A stretch of 35,795 bases of DNA, taken from NCBI GenBank assembly GCA_031271205.1, contig JAISWG010000009.1:1-35795 (forward strand). The letters run 5' to 3'. This DNA comes from Endomicrobium sp. GTDB taxonomy: Bacteria > Elusimicrobiota > Endomicrobiia > Endomicrobiales > Endomicrobiaceae. Positions 2,336 through 32,399 of the stretch are shown here, piece by piece. The notes below the pieces were generated by a model, which saw only the letters and a list, made by a program, of their open reading frames with translations, was not told the origin of the DNA and ran no database searches. The position numbers and the translations under genes were made by a program. Each line of letters opens with the position of its first letter. Within the stretch, counting starts at the first letter, position 1.

Positions 2336-3237
2336 ATTGATAGTATTTTATCAAAAATATCACAACTAAATATGCATTTATAAGTTATAAACTTTACAAT
2401 TCTATTTATATTAAGTTGACGTTTTAATTTTTAAAATTTTTTCAAAATTTTAACAGTAGTAATAAATTAATACTATAAAAATTCAAAATAATGTAGCTTT
2501 TTTGATTCTGTTAATCAAATGATTACTAAGCTTCTATTTTTTAGATTTTATGAGTTGAAAAAAGGACTTACTGCAAATTCAAATATTTTAAGATTTATTC
2601 TAAAAGGAATGATGATTTTTAATATTTCTTTATCTTTACCATAACATTTTTCAACCGTTAAATGGTGTCGCAGAACTGAGTGGATATGGGGGCGTGTTTT
2701 GTTTGAAAAACTTTTCAACAGATTCTAATGGATGGAGCTGTTTTTTTATCTCTACATATAATAACGGTGTAGTTTTCAGTATTTTATTAACATTTGCGCT
2801 TCTTCAATAAATTAAGCTTTACTGGCAAAGTTAGTCTTTTATGTATGGGTTTAAAACAATTCTAATTAATTTTTATGGGAAAATAGCAAGCGGAAATTTA
2901 GACTATAGACAGATTGACATGAATTCAAATATTTAAAAATGTTAAAAATGTAGTGTAGTATCTAAAATAAATTTTATTTACAATAAAAACAATTGGAACT
3001 ATATATTAAAATGTCTTATACGTGTATAACGTAAATAATTATATTGACATAAAAATCTGTAACGTTGAACTTTCTAAAGTTTCTACAAAACTTGATATTT
3101 TGATTATGATTACAGTGGTTTTTGTGTAGATTATAGATTTAATTTAATAATAAAGTAATCTGTAAATTGACATAAAAAGTATCTTTTTATAAAATATATC
3201 TTTTGTAGTCCGTCTGTTCAAAACGTAAGAGGGCATT
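2336..3237. other. Gene-free stretch, possibly a decayed gene
   Basis: About 0.9 kb of AT-rich sequence separates the divergent hydE and hldD genes. No gene is recognisable. One stretch (about 2610-2810, plus strand) stays open for roughly 65 codons and encodes peptides such as NGVAELSGYGGVF, but it has no convincing start and I do not recognise it. A 13-base direct repeat AATTCAAATATTT occurs at 2576-2588 and 2922-2934, and ATTGACATAAAAA occurs at about 3043 and 3166, the second copy forming the hldD -35 box. The stretch may hold a gene too eroded to name. Confidence 0.4.
3167..3195 (+). promoter_or_regulatory. Sigma-70-type promoter of the LPS block
   Basis: A perfect -35 box TTGACA (3167-3172) is followed after 17 bases by TAAAAT (3190-3195), one mismatch from the consensus -10. 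It lies about 43 bases upstream of the hldD start codon and is the only clear promoter before the LPS gene block. Confidence 0.7.
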
Positions 3238-6779: not shown

Positions 6780-6931
6780 AATATAAAAGCTCAGTTGAAG
6801 TTAAAAAAAAGAAAAATATTTTATAGAAAATTTTCTTGTGAGTGGTATTAAAACTCTGAAATTACCCTATGTGTTTTCTTACGGCGGAAACTTTCAAGTA
6901 AGGTTGTGATAGAATAAACAGACAATAAATA

Positions 6932-7460
6932 ATGAAATTTTGGGAAAAAGCTAAGAATATCAAACTTCTTGTCTGCGATGTGGATGGTATTTTAATGTTT
7001 GATGGGGTAATTATTTAGTGATGATGGATATGAGGGTGTTAAATATGAAATATTTAATTGAGTATGACAATGTATTATTTGTCAAAATGTCTTTAGAATT
7101 AAAACTGTGTTGAAATTCGTACAGCTAAAATAAAGATAACTATCTGATTAAAATTGTATGGGCAAAAAAGAAAGTCCTTTTGAAAATAACAGAAAAGGAA
7201 AATTAGATTTATTGTAATGGTATATATTATGGTGAACGATATTGTTGATATTAGTGTCTTAAAATCTCATAAGTTTTTTTGTGTTGTATAGTGTTTTCTT
7301 TTTTTGATACTTTGTGCTGATGTGAAAATGGACTATGAGTTTTGTTTCAGGTCTTATAACGGTAGTGATTGAGTGGTTAGGTAAAATGATAAGTATTATT
7401 AATGAGGGCTTTAGAGTGAGTGATAAAAAAGTTTGGAAAGGTACAAATGCTAGATTTTAA
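6932..7460 (+). pseudogene. kdsC: KdsC (Kdo-8-phosphate phosphatase) pseudogene
   Basis: KdsC is the HAD-family phosphatase that releases Kdo from Kdo-8-phosphate. Joining frames recovers the family from end to end. From the ATG at 6932 reads KNIKLLVCDVDGILMFDG, the HAD motif I with the expected DxD. Later pieces are VEIRTAK (about 7110), YIMVNDIVDISVLKSHKF (about 7222-7280), which matches the motif-IV region normally near YIGDDxxDxPVL, and VVREMISIINEGF (about 7374-7415), with a final stop at 7458. At least three frameshifts and several stops interrupt it. Its last codons overlap the preferred lpxL start, which shows the ancestral operon structure. About 150 bases between kdsA and this remnant hold nothing I recognise. 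Confidence 0.87.
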
Positions 7461-13554: not shown

Positions 13555-14035
13555 ATGGTTTTTAATCAGAATTGATGACAGTTTGGTACATGGTCAAATA
13601 GTGCAAGGTTGGCTTAGAAGTCTTGACGTAGATATTGTTTTCAGTTGCTTCGATTTAGTTGCAAATGATAAAATGCGACAGATTCTTATGGAGTGGCTTT
13701 GACAAGTTTTATAAAATTTGACGTGAAGACTCTTAAAGATGTGACAGTCTCACTGCTTAATGTATAATAAAGACTATGACAAAGAAAGAATTATGTTTTT
13801 AGTTACTTTAGTCATCAGAGATGTTGTATATATGTTGAAGAGAGGTTTAAAAATCAAATCTAAATATTACTGAATGTACATTTATATCTGGCAAAAACAG
13901 TTGATAGAGAATATGTGTGTGAATAATGAAGAAGTTGAGAGTTTAAAACAATACACTTTAATGGAATTGAAACAGAAGACAGAGTTCTTCCAGATGATGA
14001 AGAGGATATGTTGTGATATATTAGAAAGAACATCG
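13555..14035 (+). pseudogene. Mannose-family PTS EIIB pseudogene
   Basis: The frame at about 13560 reads FLIRIDDSLVHGQIVQGWLR, the diagnostic EIIB start with the active-site histidine in LVHGQ, and continues to NDKMRQILM. A stop at 13699 and frameshifts follow. Further matching pieces are TSFIKFDVKTLKDVTV (about 13700-13750), IRDVVYMLKRGLKIK (about 13815-13860) and, near 13965-14030, GIETEDRVLPDDEEDML. The order and spacing follow an intact EIIB of about 160 residues. Confidence 0.85.
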
Positions 14036-14771
14036 TAGGCTGTTTATGATATAGATAAATGAGAATAAAGTTAAGTTTATTTTTTGTACTAATAAATCAT
14101 CAGGCCTATTTGTAGATAGAAGAGTAGATAGAAGAATTGTTTGGTTTTTTTGAGAAGGTTTATTTCATATGGCAATAATAAAACTTTTATGGATATTATG
14201 TTTAAACCATTCAGAGATAAAATGAAACATACACACGCCAGCGGAAGATTTAGAAATATTTTAAATGGAACTTCTTGATTGTATAAAAATGTAAAAAACT
14301 TGTATATATCGGAAATCTTGAAATATTGTTAAAGTAAAATATTGTGAGCCATTAATAGTTTCAACTCTTGGCGGAGGTGAGTTATGGCAAAATAATAAAA
14401 GTATGTTATTATGTTGTGTGCTAAGCAAACTCTAAGTACATGAAAATTTTTGATTGTAAAGAAGCCAAAGGAGTTGACTTGCTAAAAGAGTATGGAAGCT
14501 ACTAAGTATGGCGAAAATTTTGTCAAATGTGACGTGAACACACTATTTTGATTATTCTTATTTATTGTAGCATGTTATGAATGCAGAAGTGTTAATAGAT
14601 TATTTATTATACTACTAAAACTGTTTTAAATTCAGATATGGATTTGAAAAAACTTATCAAGGAACTGCTGTGATTTTTCTCGTAAAATTTTTGATCAAGT
14701 CGTATAAAATTAAAACTTTTTCTTTACTACAAATGCAATTTTAAGAAAACGAAAGGATTGCAAAAAAGTTG
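14036..14771. other. Decayed region between EIIB and EIIC, possible metallo-hydrolase relic
   Basis: About 0.7 kb carries no open gene. Near 14190-14260 a plus-strand frame reads KTFMDIMF, KPFRDKMKHTHASG, then in another frame AEDLEIF. This resembles the C-terminal HTSGHA...EDL motif of RNase J-like metallo-beta-lactamase-fold proteins, but the match is short. Around 14350-14400 PLIVSTLGGGELWQNN can be read, which I do not recognise. The stretch probably contains one lost gene that stood between EIIB and EIIC. Confidence 0.35.
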
Positions 14772-15394
14772 TGAATATTTTTTCTTGTTTCTTTCATCGG
14801 ATCATTGTGCAGTGCTAACATAACTGTTTTTTTGGACAGTTTATGACTTATCGTCCTATATTTTGTACTCCAATTGTTGGTTTTATGTGATGCGGTTACA
14901 GTTTTTATATAGAGAGTGATTATATCAAAATTGTTTTTGATAAAAATCGTTTCTTTGGGGTAGCTGTTATTATAGATGTTTCAATGATAGGTATTTATTT
15001 GTTTTTTTGAATATGCATGTATTTCCCAGTATTTAAAGATGTGGTAATTTTAAACATACTTTTAGCCGCTTCTTTTGTTTATTTATGTAGATGGTGAAAA
15101 TTTATATTAGGAGAAAGTTTAACGTTAAAATAATGCATTTAGTAGAAGGTGGCACTAGAGATATTAAAAATTGGTATTTGGGCGGAGCTACTTCTTTTTC
15201 ATTTAATAACTTTTTGTTTATTTATTTGCTATTGTGGTTGGAGGCGAACTATTTTGTGATATTTATGCAGATTGTCAAAATATATTTTAAATGGATTAGC
15301 GAAAGCATGGTATTTATTTCCAGTGGCAAGGTTTTGGAGTGGCGTGTTAATTTGACTAATATAAGAGCTTTGTTTTTGATGAGGGATTCTAGAA
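14772..15394 (+). pseudogene. Mannose-family PTS EIIC pseudogene
   Basis: Fragments in several frames follow the order of an EIIC membrane subunit. Near 14840-14890 the frame reads QFMTYRPIFCTPIVGFM, matching the QxMLSRPIVxGPLVGL motif of this family. Near 15085-15240 it reads IYIRRKFNVKIMHLVEGG and GGATSFSFNNFLFIYLLLWL, the usual cytoplasmic loop plus next membrane helix. GLAKAWYLFPVARFWSGVLI follows at about 15295-15354 in another frame. An open stretch of 103 codons (15091-15402) is part of this corpse and is not a separate gene. Confidence 0.8.
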
Positions 15395-16140
15395 ATGATT
15401 AAATTGTATTTTCTAAAGTTTTCATAAGAAGTTTTTTCTGCGGTTATTGTGTAATTATGATCGAATGAAAATATAGTCTTTATTTTTATATTAAGACCAA
15501 TTTTTGATGTGCTTTAGACTGCAGAAAAAGATAAAAAGAAATTCTTTATAAGACAATGTAGTAGAATACTTTAATACTCAACTATATATGGTTCTGGCGT
15601 GATGATAACAGGGATGGTTTGTCAACATGGAAAAAGAAACAGTCAAGATGGAACTACTGTGGGTGCTTAGTCGTAAATATGTAATATGAAAGAGTTAAAA
15701 GCAATATATCAGGCCCTCTTGCGGCTATGGAGAGCCTTATATAGAGTTTTGATAGAACATGTTATCATTTCTGAATATGGCTATAATGGTTATTTTTCTC
15801 TACTGGATTAGTAGAGTATATCATTTAGCTCGATTATTTTTTTATATTGTTTATAATTCCCTACATTTATAGATGAGAGTCTCTCTTTTATATGAAAGTT
15901 TTAAATATGGCGACAATAATATGGAAATCTTTAGTTTATTTTAACTCAATGTCAGATACTATGCTCGCTTCGGAGTCTTTATAATGTTTCTTGCAGCTTT
16001 TTTCTTCATATTTAGTTTTTTGGTTTTAGTAATGAAGGAAAGCTTTTTAATTTAAGTTATATTGATTTATTTGTATATATGGTGATTTTTTTTGTTTTCG
16101 TTTTTACAACAAGTAAATTCGGTTGATATTTTTTATGTTT
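15395..16140 (+). pseudogene. Mannose-family PTS EIID pseudogene
   Basis: From the ATG at 15395 broken frames give KVFIRSFF and NYDRMK (compare the RSFFLQASWNYERMQ start of EIID). VEYFNTQLYM (about 15560-15590) corresponds to the FFNTHPYxA motif. ISGPLAAMESLI (about 15708-15740) corresponds to MGPLAGIGDSL, and FFYIVYNSLHL plus MRVSLLYESFKYGD (about 15840-15915) to the family's NIxHLWxRxxGxxxGYxxG. Stops and frameshifts are frequent throughout. It ends just before ptsH. Confidence 0.8.
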
Positions 16141-16188
16141 TTTTGTTCTAATTATGTGCATAACAATATCTGTTTTAGGAATATAAAA

Positions 16189-18551: not shown

Positions 18552-18580
18552 TTGACAATCAAAAAAAAAAAATATAAAAT
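18552..18580 (+). promoter_or_regulatory. Sigma-70-type promoter of the YccA-like gene
   Basis: TTGACA (18552-18557) and TAAAAT (18575-18580) are separated by 17 bases. The boxes and spacing are identical to those before hldD. Between the boxes is a run of 12 A residues. The gene starts 33 bases downstream after GGAGGG. Confidence 0.72.
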
Positions 18581-18612: not shown

Positions 18613-19335
18613 ATGAGTAATCCACTTTTGAAGAACAGTGTTTTTCAAACGCCTGTTAGAAATGCAGAAGTTATGACAATTTCTGGTACAATAAACAAAA
18701 GTATAATTTTATGGGTTTTGCTTGCTGTAGGCGCATTTTACTCTTGGACTCATCCAAGTCTTATAATGCCGCTGATGTTGCCTATATTGTTAGGAGGTTT
18801 TGCCTTGGCTGTAATTTTATCTTTTAAGATGAAATTATCGCCGTTTTTGTCACCTATTTATGCTGTTTGTGAAGGTCTTATTTTGGGAATCATTTCCGTT
18901 TATTTTGAAAAATTATACCCTGGCATTGTTGTAAATGCTGTGTTGTTGACAATGTGTGTTCTGTTTTGTATGCTTGCAGCTTATAAAACAAATATGCTTA
19001 GAGCCACACCAATGTTTAAGAAAATTGTTATACTTTCAACATTTGCTATAGCTTTTGCGTATTTAATTGATTTATTGATTGGTGCTTTTGGTGCAAGAAG
19101 TTTTAACTTTTTGTCAGATTCTTTTTCATTGGGGAGTAGTGGTGGTATAATAATTAGCCTTATAATAGTTGTTATTGCTTCTTTAAATCTTATTATAGAT
19201 TTTGATTTAATTGAACGCGGTGCACAGTATGGAGTACCTAAATATATGGAATGGTACAGCTCTTTTGCTTTAATGGTAACGCTTGTATGGCTTTATCTTG
19301 AAACACTAAGATTTCTTTCAAAGACGAAAAATTAA
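18613..19335 (+). CDS. Bax inhibitor-1/YccA family membrane protein
   Basis: With the start at 18613 (GGAGGG six bases upstream) the protein has 240 residues and about seven hydrophobic membrane segments, the layout of the BI-1/YccA/YbhL family. The C-terminal part IIDFDLIERGAQYGVPKYMEW, including the conserved aspartate-rich region after the sixth helix, is characteristic. Family members include the E. coli YccA modulator of FtsH and the BsYetJ calcium leak channel; which function applies here is unknown. Its stop codon is three bases from engB, so engB is probably translated by coupling. Confidence 0.86.
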   Translation: MSNPLLKNSVFQTPVRNAEVMTISGTINKSIILWVLLAVGAFYSWTHPSLIMPLMLPILLGGFALAVILSFKMKLSPFLSPIYAVCEGLILGIISVYFEKLYPGIVVNAVLLTMCVLFCMLAAYKTNMLRATPMFKKIVILSTFAIAFAYLIDLLIGAFGARSFNFLSDSFSLGSSGGIIISLIIVVIASLNLIIDFDLIERGAQYGVPKYMEWYSSFALMVTLVWLYLETLRFLSKTKN

Positions 19336-19338
19336 AAA

Positions 19339-19919
19339 ATGCTTAAAAAGACGGTATTTTTTAGGATGGAGTCAAATGTAAAATTACTTCCTCAAAGTAT
19401 AGCTGAGATTATCTTATCTGGTAGGTCTAATGTAGGTAAAAGCAGCGTTATAAACGCTTTGTGTTCTCAAAAAAATTTAGCGAGAACTTCAAAAAAACCA
19501 GGCAGAACAAGAAGTATAAATGTTTACAGTGTAGCCATGAAAAAGTGGATGATAGATTTGCCTGGTTATGGTTTTGCAAGAGTAAGTTTTGAAGAAAAAA
19601 AAAATGGAATAAAATGGTAGAGGAATGTATAGTTCAAAGGAAAAACAAAAAAACTGTTTATATAATAATAGATGCTTTTGTAGGTCCTACGGAATTAGAT
19701 TTTGATATGGCTTGTTGGCTTAAAGAGCACAGTATTCCGTTTAAAGTTGTTGCGAATAAGTTTGATAAACTACCAGATACTATAACTGAGGATGAAGTTA
19801 AGACTAAAGCGGCGCAATATTTTGAAATAAGTAAATCTTTAGTGTTTACAGTAAGTGCAAAGAAAAAAGTAGGTTTTAATAAATTGAGGGACGATATTGT
19901 CAGATTTTTGGGTTATTAA
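19339..19919 (+). CDS. engB: Ribosome-assembly GTPase EngB (YihA/YsxC), split by a frameshift at A10
   Basis: EngB is a GTPase needed for 50S ribosomal subunit assembly and essential in most bacteria tested. The first frame (19339-19620) carries P-loop GRSNVGKSS (28-36), the switch region GRTRS and G3 DLPGYGFA (73-80). The second frame (19614-19919) carries G4 ANKFDK and G5 VSAKKK. They meet at ten A residues (19595-19604). One extra A gives [12 protein letters not shown], matching the family, and a protein of about 193 residues, the usual length. The first frame's stop overlaps an ATG (ATGGTAG), so reinitiation could also make two pieces. All conserved motifs are intact, which suggests function under selection or a recent change. 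Confidence 0.85.
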
Positions 19920-22037: not shown

Positions 22038-23069
22038 ATATTAAAAATCCCTCGTTGTTTTAATAATAATATTTTACCAAAATTATATTTCATGGATATA
22101 TTAGTATTTAAATGCTAATTGTAAATTCAAAAACCTAAAATAATAGACTTTGCTTTCTAAAAACTAAAGCAATTTTTTCAATTTAATTCCTTCTAAAAGA
22201 AGTTGAAATGAAATAAATAGTTTTGTACTATTTATTTTATGAAAAAACTCACTAAAAGTAAAATGTGGTTTTAAGAAACGTGTTGCTATGTTTTTATTCC
22301 TACGGCAAAAAATCTATTTTAATGTTAGTATTTCTCTAGCGGTTATGTGTATGTTTGTTGTGTTGTGAGCAGGGATGTGTTTGGTCAATTTATATTTTGT
22401 TGGCAGATGCAGATTATACTAGTAAACATTAATAAAAGTTGACAATGAAATAATGATGTTAATGCTTGTACATAAACTTGATAAAATAAAAATTACGTTG
22501 TTGTGTGTGGTTTCACAGCAGATGATGAGAAAATTCGTAGTGTGTTTTGTGTGTCCTTATGGATAAAATCCATAGTAGAAGAAGAAAAAGGCTTCTGGTA
22601 GATTTAGAAAAAATAACTCACTTGCCCATAATGCTTTAATCCTTATTTTTTAGAAAAGCTTAATTTTCTCTAAGCTGTTTTTATGTCTTTTTCTGCAAAT
22701 AAATATTCTTTCTGAAAGGTATAAACTTATGTAGTAAAATTATAATGATATGCAAATAGAGCATAAGCGTGTGTAAGGTAAAATAAGCTGTAAGTTTAGA
22801 AACCTCAATTTAACAAATTATTTTTTTGCTGAGTTTTTAGAGGAGCGACAATGCTTAAAAAAAGCAAAAAAATATTTGGCAAAGTTTTTTGGAATATTTA
22901 TGCCGAAAAGCGTAAATAATAGGTGAAACTGCAAAATATAGAATTTTTCTCTACGCAAAAGTATTTGAAATATAAAAACAAATACATTTTTCTATAGCAG
23001 AAGGATTACAACTATACGGAAAAAATTTTCAATAACAGTAAAATAAAAAAATCAATGGAGCGAAAACGA
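22038..23069. other. Gene-poor stretch with probable decayed genes
   Basis: About 1 kb without a recognisable intact gene. At 22851 an ATG preceded by AGGAGCG opens MLKKSKKIFGKVFWNIYAEKRK and stops after 22 codons, which looks like the surviving start of a lost gene; the following bases (to about 23040) can be read as YLKYKNKYIF and AEGLQLYGKNFQ in other frames. Between about 22240 and 22640 there are short open pieces such as FTADDEKIRSVF and KIYFNVSISLAVMCMFVV, suggesting another decayed plus-strand gene. I recognise neither. Confidence 0.4.
22654..22682 (+). terminator. Possible intrinsic terminator of a decayed gene
   Basis: AGCTTA (22657-22662) and TAAGCT (22671-22676) form a stem with an 8-base loop, flanked by AAAA on the left and a T5 run (22678-22682) on the right. 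It fits a weak Rho-independent terminator at the end of the decayed stretch upstream. The stem is short and AT-rich. Confidence 0.4.
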
Positions 23070-28440: not shown

Positions 28441-28577
28441 CAGATATTTAGTCCACTTTTGAATTAGAGCGTATCAATTTATGTTATTGTCTTTGCTGTT
28501 TGCACCTTAGCAGAATTTATGTAACAGTTATTTTATTACTGTGAAAGTAGGAATAAAGTTTTATAAGAAAAGATAAT

Positions 28578-29540
28578 ATGAAAAATTTTAAATTGTTATT
28601 TTCTAAATGGATCTTTCTTAGTCTTGTATTTCTAATACTTATGCCTGTGTTAAGATTTATATTTAGACGCTATGGCAAAATGTATAAATTTTGATGGAGC
28701 GATGTAAATGTGATAAGACGTTCTAATTTGTGGTATATAGTTCAGCTAAAATATGCTTGTAAAAATATGATTTTATCGGATCGATTTCATATAAGAAAGT
28801 AACTATGAAGCAACATTTATGCATAGCGACAATACTGGTTGGAGAAACATAGGTAATTTTATGTCGAATTTAGAATTTGACACAAAAGGTTCTAGTGAAA
28901 TAAGTTTGAGCGTTTTTTTTGTCTCTGTAATCAATAGGAGTGTATGACGATGATTATTTGAGTACTTATTTGAAATTTTAAGTAAGGATAATAAAAGAAA
29001 ATTTGTTTTATGTAATGATTACTACCAACCATTCGTCGTGTTCTTTACATGATAATTACGAAGCTATGTCTATTAAAATTCCAAAAGAATTGGAGAAGAA
29101 TATTGTAAAACGAAAGTTTAATTCAGAATAGATTTGCTGTTTAATCAGTATTCAAATGAGATACTTGGTAGATTTGCAACAAAGATAAAAAATTTAAAAT
29201 ATACAATAATACAAAATCGTAGCTGTTACAGACGATCATGATTTATGATTGTTCGTCATATTCTAATGAAAGACTTTCAGATGTTTTGAATGTCCTTTTC
29301 TATTGTATATTTCAGAGGATATATTAAACCATCAAAATGTAGATATTTCTGTTTTTTTTGGTTCACATTTAGGTAGTATAATGTTTATTCTTTATGGATA
29401 ATGGAGCAATAATGAGCAAAAAAATGTGTTGTTGAGTATAATTTAGTGAAGATTTTTTATGTTCTGTTTGAAAAAATAAATATAAAGAACTTCTTCTTTA
29501 TTTAAATATATTTTTGGACTAAACGACGTGATTAAACATT
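28578..29540 (+). pseudogene. LtaS-type sulfatase pseudogene
   Basis: A second, dead copy of the LtaS-type family. It starts MKNFKLLFSKWIFLSLVF at 28578, like a membrane-anchored N terminus, then breaks. Pieces in order are HSDNTGWRNIGNFMSNLEF (about 28822-28876), MITTNHSSCSLHDNY and IKIPKELEKNI (about 29014-29106), KIVAVTDDHDL (about 29214-29246) and VPFLLYISEDILNHQNVDIS (about 29291-29350). The same motifs occur in the intact minus-strand gene at 20058-22037 as STATHPPYKTPPYYKPLKLEIPKEL-type and VITGDHN. The remnant is about half the intact length, so an internal deletion removed most of the membrane part. Confidence 0.82.
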
Positions 29541-31369: not shown

Positions 31370-31892
31370 AATTGATGTGGCAATTATTGCAGGGTCGAGA
31401 TCTGATTTGGTTTTAGTTGGTGAAACAATTAAAGTTTTAGATGAATTTAAACTTTTTTATAGTGTGAATATAGCTTCTGCTCATAGAACAGCTGAACATT
31501 TAAAGCAATGTATAAATAGAGCCGAAAGTTCTTGTGTAAAAGTTTTTATAGCTGTGGCTGGTATGTCTGCAGCTCTTCCGGGAGTTGTTGCTTCAGAAAC
31601 TGTTCTTCCAGTAATAGGTGTTCCTGTAGAGTGCAAGCATTTGGCAGGATTTGATGCCTTGCTGTCCATATCGCAAATGCCTAAAGGTGTACCTGTGGCT
31701 ACTGTTGCAGTAGGTAAAGCAGGAGCTGCAAACGCAGCGATTTTAGCCGTTCAAATAATTGCAATAGATAACTATGATTTGAAAGCAAAGTTAAAATCTT
31801 ACAAAATAGGTCTTGCTGAACTTATAGTAAAAGAAAATCTTGAACTTCAAAAAGACGGTTTTAAAAAATATATAACAGGTTTGAAAAAATAA
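31359..31892 (+). CDS. purE: N5-CAIR mutase, catalytic subunit PurE
   Basis: PurE class I moves the carboxyl group of N5-CAIR to make CAIR. The 177-residue protein has the family motifs GSRSDLVL (13-20), SAHRTAEHL and AGMSAALPGVVAS, with AGFDALLSISQMPKGVPVATV later. The partner PurK, which makes N5-CAIR in class-I systems, is not in this window. A pyrR pseudogene begins immediately after the stop. Confidence 0.94.
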   Translation: MENRIDVAIIAGSRSDLVLVGETIKVLDEFKLFYSVNIASAHRTAEHLKQCINRAESSCVKVFIAVAGMSAALPGVVASETVLPVIGVPVECKHLAGFDALLSISQMPKGVPVATVAVGKAGAANAAILAVQIIAIDNYDLKAKLKSYKIGLAELIVKENLELQKDGFKKYITGLKK

Positions 31893-31893
31893 A

Positions 31894-32399
31894 ATGGCAA
31901 AAATTATATTAGATTCTGACGCTTTTCAAGATGTGCTAAGCAAGGTTTCTGTAGAAATTTTTTGACGTTGATCGCAAATTTTGTTGTTTTCGGCATACAA
32001 AACAAAAAAAATGTTTCTTGCAGAGAGAATTATTTCTAAAATTGCAAAGTTTTATAGTGTATAAAGAATCTGAATTTTGCTTAGAACTTTATATATCACC
32101 AAACTTACAGAGAGGGTGAGCTTGATGATTCTGAGTTTGGCATGTCTGTACGATATGTGATCATACACCATTTGATTTAAACAGAAAAAATATAATTTTT
32201 GTTGATAATGATTTTTATTTACGGAAAGAACGATAAGAGTTACTTTTATGTGTGCTTGTGTATGTTTTGGCAAACTAAAAGTCTGTGTTCAATTGGCGAT
32301 TTTAATTAATAGAAATTTTTAGGAACTATAGTTTGTAGGAACCAAATATGTTTGAGTCAAATATGAAACAAAAAAAACATAAAAGTTGATTATGAGTAA
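31894..32399 (+). pseudogene. pyrR: PyrR (pyrimidine attenuation regulator) pseudogene
   Basis: Intact PyrR binds pyr mRNA and represses pyrimidine genes by attenuation. Here the ATG at 31894 gives MAKIILDSDAFQDVLSKVSV and stops after about 23 codons. Later pieces fall in order: LAERIISKIAK (about 32016-32048), HHFDLNRKNIIFVDNDFYL (about 32169-32222), which matches the PRPP-binding IPFDxxGKNIILVDDVLYTGRT motif, YTERTIRVT (about 32219-32245), QLAILINRN (about 32291-32317), then FVGTKYV and TKKT up to a stop at 32397. Several stops and frameshifts disrupt it. Confidence 0.87.

Follow-up and report, generated by a model that had tools for sequence, protein, structure and literature searches.

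The window, that is the whole stretch of 35,795 nucleotides analysed here and the entirety of contig C9, carries an engB gene whose coding sequence is divided between two open reading frames (ORFs) differing by −1, rather than lying in a single uninterrupted frame (Table 1). The frame change falls at a run of exactly ten A residues in the assembly (A10), above the threshold of at least nine A or T residues used here for slippage rescue, and within this run an A AAA AAA heptamer in the zero frame (19596–19602) conforms to the X XXY YYZ slippery pattern. No additional stop or frame change was found inside either half by reading of the ORFs or by comparison with relatives. The open gene upstream is taken to encode a BI-1/YbhL-like membrane protein (ybhL) and ends 3 nt before the first engB ATG. 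The two genes adjoin on one contig in 29 of 30 engB-bearing relatives and lie on different contigs in the other (G028). The longest A run of the window, an A12 at 18561–18572, is located just upstream of the ybhL-engB pair.

Table 1. Coordinates of the engB locus and of decayed genes in the window; relics are of genes open in relative G007.
Feature	Coordinates	Strand	Remarks
Relic of 181-aa G007 gene	2895..3144	+	tblastn; no Pfam match
Relic, HAD-type hydrolase gene	6893..7450	+	33% amino acid identity to G007 ORF; Pfam
Relic, sorbose-family PTS IIB gene	13562..14004	+	tblastn, Pfam
Relic, GH57 amylase/glucanotransferase gene	14064..14603	+	tblastn, Pfam
Relic, PTS IIC gene	14744..15399	+	tblastn, Pfam
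Relic, PTS IID gene	15383..16183	+	tblastn, Pfam
BI-1/YbhL-like gene	18613..19335	+	open, upstream of engB
engB ORF1	19339..19620	+	N-terminal half, 93 aa, G1–G3 motifs; ends TAG 19618–19620
A10 run	19595..19604	+	ORF1 reads AAA AAA AAT; ORF2 frame at −1
ATGGTAG start/stop overlap	19614..19620	+	ATGATAG in relatives L034, L035
engB ORF2	19614..19919	+	C-terminal half, 101 aa, starts MVEE, G4–G5 motifs, normal stop
Relic, peptidase M23 gene	22255..22752	+	tblastn, Pfam
Relic, sulfatase-family gene	28566..29395	+	tblastn, Pfam
Relic, phosphoribosyltransferase gene	31885..32209	+	tblastn, Pfam

Identity was established with the TIGR03598 profile of the EngB/YsxC GTPase, for which the cut-off is 124.45 bits. 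Alone, both halves fall under it, ORF1 with 111.3 bits (residues 13–89 on profile positions 10–86) and ORF2 with 50.9 bits (profile positions 90–185), whereas the in-line protein of both halves, in which XX marks the break, reaches 180.1 bits, compared with 181.0 bits for the intact protein of relative L034. The residues taken to be the GTPase motifs G1–G3 and G4–G5 are all present and are the same or nearly the same as in relatives. An earlier note, made from the sequence alone, had described a GTPase gene with intact motifs broken at A10, and both parts of that description hold: the run divides an otherwise complete EngB/YsxC gene.

The assembly consists of 29 contigs totalling 609,713 bases, is 53.5% complete and contains engB only once. 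The check for a second copy that the earlier note had called for gave none in this assembled part, and a third match of the EngB search was rejected as a candidate given that it sits in a 702-aa frame, presumably that of IF2. Der (EngA) likewise gave nothing over the cut-off in the same 53.5% of the genome, reflecting either the incomplete assembly or another loss. By ORF2, the closest relative is Ca. Endomicrobiellum devescovinae Gsp477_bin38 (L034), at 88%. The named relatives are Candidatus Endomicrobiellum or Endomicrobium records, a group described as symbionts of termite-gut flagellates (PMC11257099).

Frame changes at A/T runs of at least 7 were scanned for in 197,853 bases, comprising the window and 12 further stretches, or 32% of the genome. 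Thirteen were flagged, and only engB was judged to be a split gene; visual inspection, the sole criterion applied, assigned the remaining 12 to neighbouring genes, antisense frames or readings out of frame. In the sampled 198 kb, open frames of at least 150 aa, judged by open length only, enclose five other A10/T10 runs as well as 25 of the 32 A9/T9 runs (the latter by manual count). The assembly therefore does not generally miscount runs. General homopolymer trouble was not seen in the sampled 32%, though engB itself may carry an isolated error or a run of variable length.

To place the run in its history, 41 genomes of the genus were searched, consisting of the window genome and 40 relatives. 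EngB scores over the cut-off in 30 of the 40, with the other 10 having none, and in each of the 30 the gene is one open frame. The comparison of run length among relatives that the earlier note had proposed was carried out, and a run longer than A8 at the break site is present in none of these 30 intact genes. The frameshift is also absent from all 30, which are diverged relatives, the set holding no genome of the same species. Residues at the site are Leu-Trp in 26, Ile-Trp in two, and Ala-Trp and Phe-Leu in one each. The close relatives G007, G028 and G027 read GAA AAA GAA CTT TGG, from which the window differs only by G → A and CTT → AA, and relatives have GAACTTTGG or similar where the window has A10. 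Since the close relatives have GAA CTT TGG, the run is new in the window lineage. A programmed site conserved across the genus was rejected because the run is absent from every relative, and, with the break in none of the 30, long-term retention finds no support.

A10 may have arisen in any of several ways: deletion of one T from CTTT accompanied by substitutions, deletion of CTT followed by lengthening of the run, or passage through an A11 stage. The repair by one extra A described in the earlier note could be read as pointing to an A11 gene minus one A. As a recorded history this was rejected, given that G007, G028 and G027 all have GAA CTT TGG and that no recorded ancestor carries such a run; an A11 intermediate arising through substitutions is still possible. 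The related claim that one extra A repairs the gene is correct for the frame and fails for the ancestral codons and the earlier protein, relatives being without a long run at this site. In the engB of another species (G009, L007) an A11 run somewhere in the gene leaves the frame unbroken, so such runs are tolerated in engB.

Selection was estimated with a codon model that allows a separate ω on the window branch, using relatives G007, G027 and G026 where all were found and, for engB, omitting the two junction codons. On the window branch engB has an ω of 0.125, compared with 0.089 on the other branches, a difference that is not significant (2ΔlnL 0.67), and ω = 1 on the window branch is rejected for the whole gene (2ΔlnL 26.6), for the part before the break (ω 0.104, 2ΔlnL 19.1) and for the part after it (ω 0.148, 2ΔlnL 5.98). 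Among 25 comparison genes the window-branch ω has a median of 0.137 (range 0.084–0.613), and relaxed selection was not measurable in either half of engB, where ω is similar to that of other window genes. These 25 were kept from 28 tried, after mnmA, hydE and pyrK had been dropped for too few taxa, and the fits for hprK, surA and pyrC have three taxa each. Three of the 25 (lptC, hpf and pyrC) fail to reject ω = 1 at 2ΔlnL 3.84, and in several ω is higher on the window branch than on the other branches; the comparison set is therefore itself somewhat relaxed. In 24 of 24 comparison genes with G007 in the fit, the fitted branch is longer in the window lineage than in G007.

A model of selection followed by neutrality was used to date the break on the assumption that it is unrescued, the date being expressed as the neutral share of the window branch. 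For the whole gene the best share is 5–10%, with 2ΔlnL of 2.16 at 20% and 6.51 at 30%, and the interpolated 95% upper limit is approximately 24%; for the post-break part alone the limit is approximately 48% (2ΔlnL 3.01 at 40% and 4.07 at 50%). For most of the branch, both halves have thus been under purifying selection, and an unrescued break would fall within about its last quarter by the whole gene, with nearly half the branch allowed by the 3' part. The constraint on both halves leaves three readings, namely a recent break, a rescued one or an artefact, and does not distinguish the first two.

Decay is evident elsewhere in the window. Genes open in G007, the nearest relative, were searched for by tblastn, and nine of them are relics here, all syntenic, with 33–56% identity in the main piece and several in more than one frame; for comparison, the engB pieces are 91% and 83% identical to G007, and intact window genes 71–93%. 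Were the nine losses spread evenly over the branch, some 0.5–2 in the window would be as young as the engB break could be, which makes one fresh pseudogene ordinary. Losses concentrated early in the branch would lower this number. Within 13562–16183, a mannose/sorbose-type PTS permease (IIB, IIC and IID) and a GH57 gene have decayed, while homologues that we take to be ptsH, ptsI, ptsN, hprK and rapZ are open in the window, so the phosphorelay has outlived its sugar transporter.

Five relatives (G021, G022, G024, G025 and G036; L088, L089, L090, L091 and L092) have ybhL without engB beside it, and no engB was found within 2 to 4 kb after ybhL in any of them. With the EngB of L034 as query, matches in the ten EngB-less relatives lie only inside frames of 420–702 aa; whole-assembly matches in G021, G022, G024 and G025 are confined to frames of 436–469 aa, and G036 gave none. 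The five assemblies are 63–78% complete and four of them span 200–500 kb. The other five EngB-less relatives have no ybhL match either, and say little on engB loss. In a tree of ybhL the five genomes do not form one group, G025 joining the engB-bearing G032 and G021 joining G022, both at starred forks. This tree was built from a single protein, many of its forks are weak, and its rows G024 and G025 are flagged as long. It suggests two losses at supported forks, of which one depends on a flagged row, and G036 and G024 may represent further losses. Loss of engB in the reduced genomes of the genus thus looks repeated. Because five relatives keep ybhL with engB missing there and in the rest of their incomplete assemblies, the gene seems dispensable in the genus, and the term 'essential' applied to it by the earlier note is too strong here. 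Among Mollicutes, by comparison, EngB is reported as missing only in M. suis (PMC4014445). In G036, a gap of approximately 600 nt after ybhL (L092, 706–1308) is the size of engB and may hold a relic of it. Four of six queries match within 742–837 at E 0.66–3.1, with nothing at E 0.2 in a repeat search, and the relic was considered too weak to claim.

The reading preferred here, held tentatively at a probability of roughly 0.47, is that of a real, recent and leaky break in the only known engB of this genome, on its way to loss. Presuming that ten is the true base count, GAA CTT before the conserved Trp would have been replaced by A residues in a lineage shedding genes, leaving the sequence one base shorter. 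Normal reading would then give a 93-aa fragment without G4 and G5, and a minority of transcripts, probably one A longer, would give full-length EngB, leaving the break leaky rather than null. The frameshift would represent the first step in the loss of a gene already lost from other lineages of the genus. Retention of engB in 30 of 40 relatives counts against this reading, and the unrelaxed selection in both halves fits rescue or a misread run equally well.

Leakiness is likely on general grounds, as A runs this long induce slippage of bacterial RNA polymerase, and slippage at engB itself would follow by analogy. The enterobacterial enzyme slips on A or T runs of at least 9 (PMC6260861, PMC5009743), although bacterial polymerase is described as less slippage-prone than that of T7 (PMC6260861). 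The earlier note had called transcriptional rescue established in endosymbionts such as Buchnera. Slippage at poly(A) frameshifts is indeed described for aphid and ant endosymbionts (PMC5009743, PMC3017870), with 12–50% of the transcripts of frameshifted genes corrected (PMC5009743); it is also contested, since a transcriptome-wide study of E. coli and Buchnera describes insertions rising exponentially with run length and detected no frame-restoring case (PMC5574713), which counts against a leaky break. For Endomicrobia, a literature search found no report of slippage rescue.

A less probable account, though one of some weight, is that A10 is stably kept and that polymerase slippage or −1 ribosomal shifting yields enough full-length EngB for the gene to be functional and selected. 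The constraint on both halves, the post-break half included, would be expected of such a gene, as would an in-line protein scoring like a normal EngB, and the shifted product is plausible in that the solved EngB structure 1pui, presumably that of E. coli, likewise has Lys preceding the Trp. Precedent is offered by the transcript correction reported for endosymbionts of aphids and ants (PMC5009743) and by eight Blochmannia vafer genes with homopolymer frameshifts, of which the four exclusive to that species are not faster evolving (PMC3017870). Maintenance is harder to reconcile with the absence of the break from the 30 relatives with intact engB, with its being the sole such split read in 32% of the genome, and with the gaps in the distribution of engB across the genus. 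For −1 ribosomal shifting, the heptamer named in the earlier note is present, but a stimulator was not seen near the site: the nearest predicted stem starts approximately 25 nt downstream, with a z of −1.67 and 9 of 200 shuffles doing as well, and no Shine-Dalgarno-like sequence was seen by eye upstream of the slippery site. The proposal of the earlier note that slippage could make full-length EngB draws support from purifying selection on both halves, from the lack of a second engB in the assembled part and from published precedent; its claim of essentiality and an A11-loss history do not.

About as probable as maintained rescue is that the assembly or its consensus is wrong here, or that the run varies in length between cells while the main allele of the population is in frame. 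Indel errors, like genuine differences in length, are commonest in homopolymers, engB shows the selection expected of an intact gene, and the 29 contigs form an incomplete draft. The A10/T10 and A9/T9 runs that lie in open frames elsewhere speak against it, as does the use of Illumina NovaSeq reads for the MAGs of one large study of the group (PMC11257099), a study that may differ from the source of the window's MAG.

A further, improbable possibility is that A10 was itself selected as a suppressor, an indel in GAACTTTGG having come first and A substitutions having then been favoured for a slippage site restoring full-length EngB. A split gene, in which reinitiation at ATGGTAG yields ORF2 and a functional GTPase forms from the two halves, would suit the start/stop overlap and the constraint on both halves but is very improbable, as the cut parts G1–G3 from G4–G5 in a single small domain, no Shine-Dalgarno-like sequence was seen by eye before ORF2, and the overlap, which the earlier note had offered as a reinitiation device, is a by-product of conserved codons, given the ATGATAG at the same codons of the intact L034 and L035 genes.

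If the break is real, a ribosome-assembly gene has been caught at the first step of its loss with constraint measurable on both sides, and slippage-tolerated frameshifts would extend from insect endosymbionts to Endomicrobia. If A10 was selected, it would represent a suppressor that counters the frameshift of a GTPase acting in ribosome assembly. With engB absent from several other lineages of the genus, reducing symbionts may be able to do without a gene regarded as essential in model bacteria. A run-length error would instead urge caution when draft assemblies are used to infer the loss of essential genes.

Compared with the EngB/YsxC family (TIGR03598), the in-line protein of the window belongs by score and, unlike the family, is split between two frames, with each half under the cut-off. 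The locus shares with early pseudogenes of reducing symbiont genomes a single lesion amid many older relics, and differs from them in that no relaxation of selection is measurable yet. In Thermus, the slippage product of dnaX is programmed and functional. Bacterial dnaX and tssM of Citrobacter rodentium resemble the mechanism proposed here in that polymerase slippage on an A/T run changes the frame (PMC5009743, PMC4256274); unlike dnaX, engB bears no sign of programmed use. The nearest parallels are the frameshifted genes of Blochmannia (dnaX, dnaG and pth of B. vafer) and Buchnera. Unlike these, the window engB is known in one genome and from DNA alone, its run replaces non-A codons of the relatives, and it belongs to an Endomicrobia relative, a bacterium of another phylum with known relatives living in termite-gut protists, in a genus where engB is missing elsewhere. 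The likeness lies in an AT-rich symbiont with one poly(A) frame break in a housekeeping gene that is otherwise intact (PMC3017870), and extends to selection, the four genes tested in Blochmannia being reported to show no acceleration of evolution (PMC3017870).
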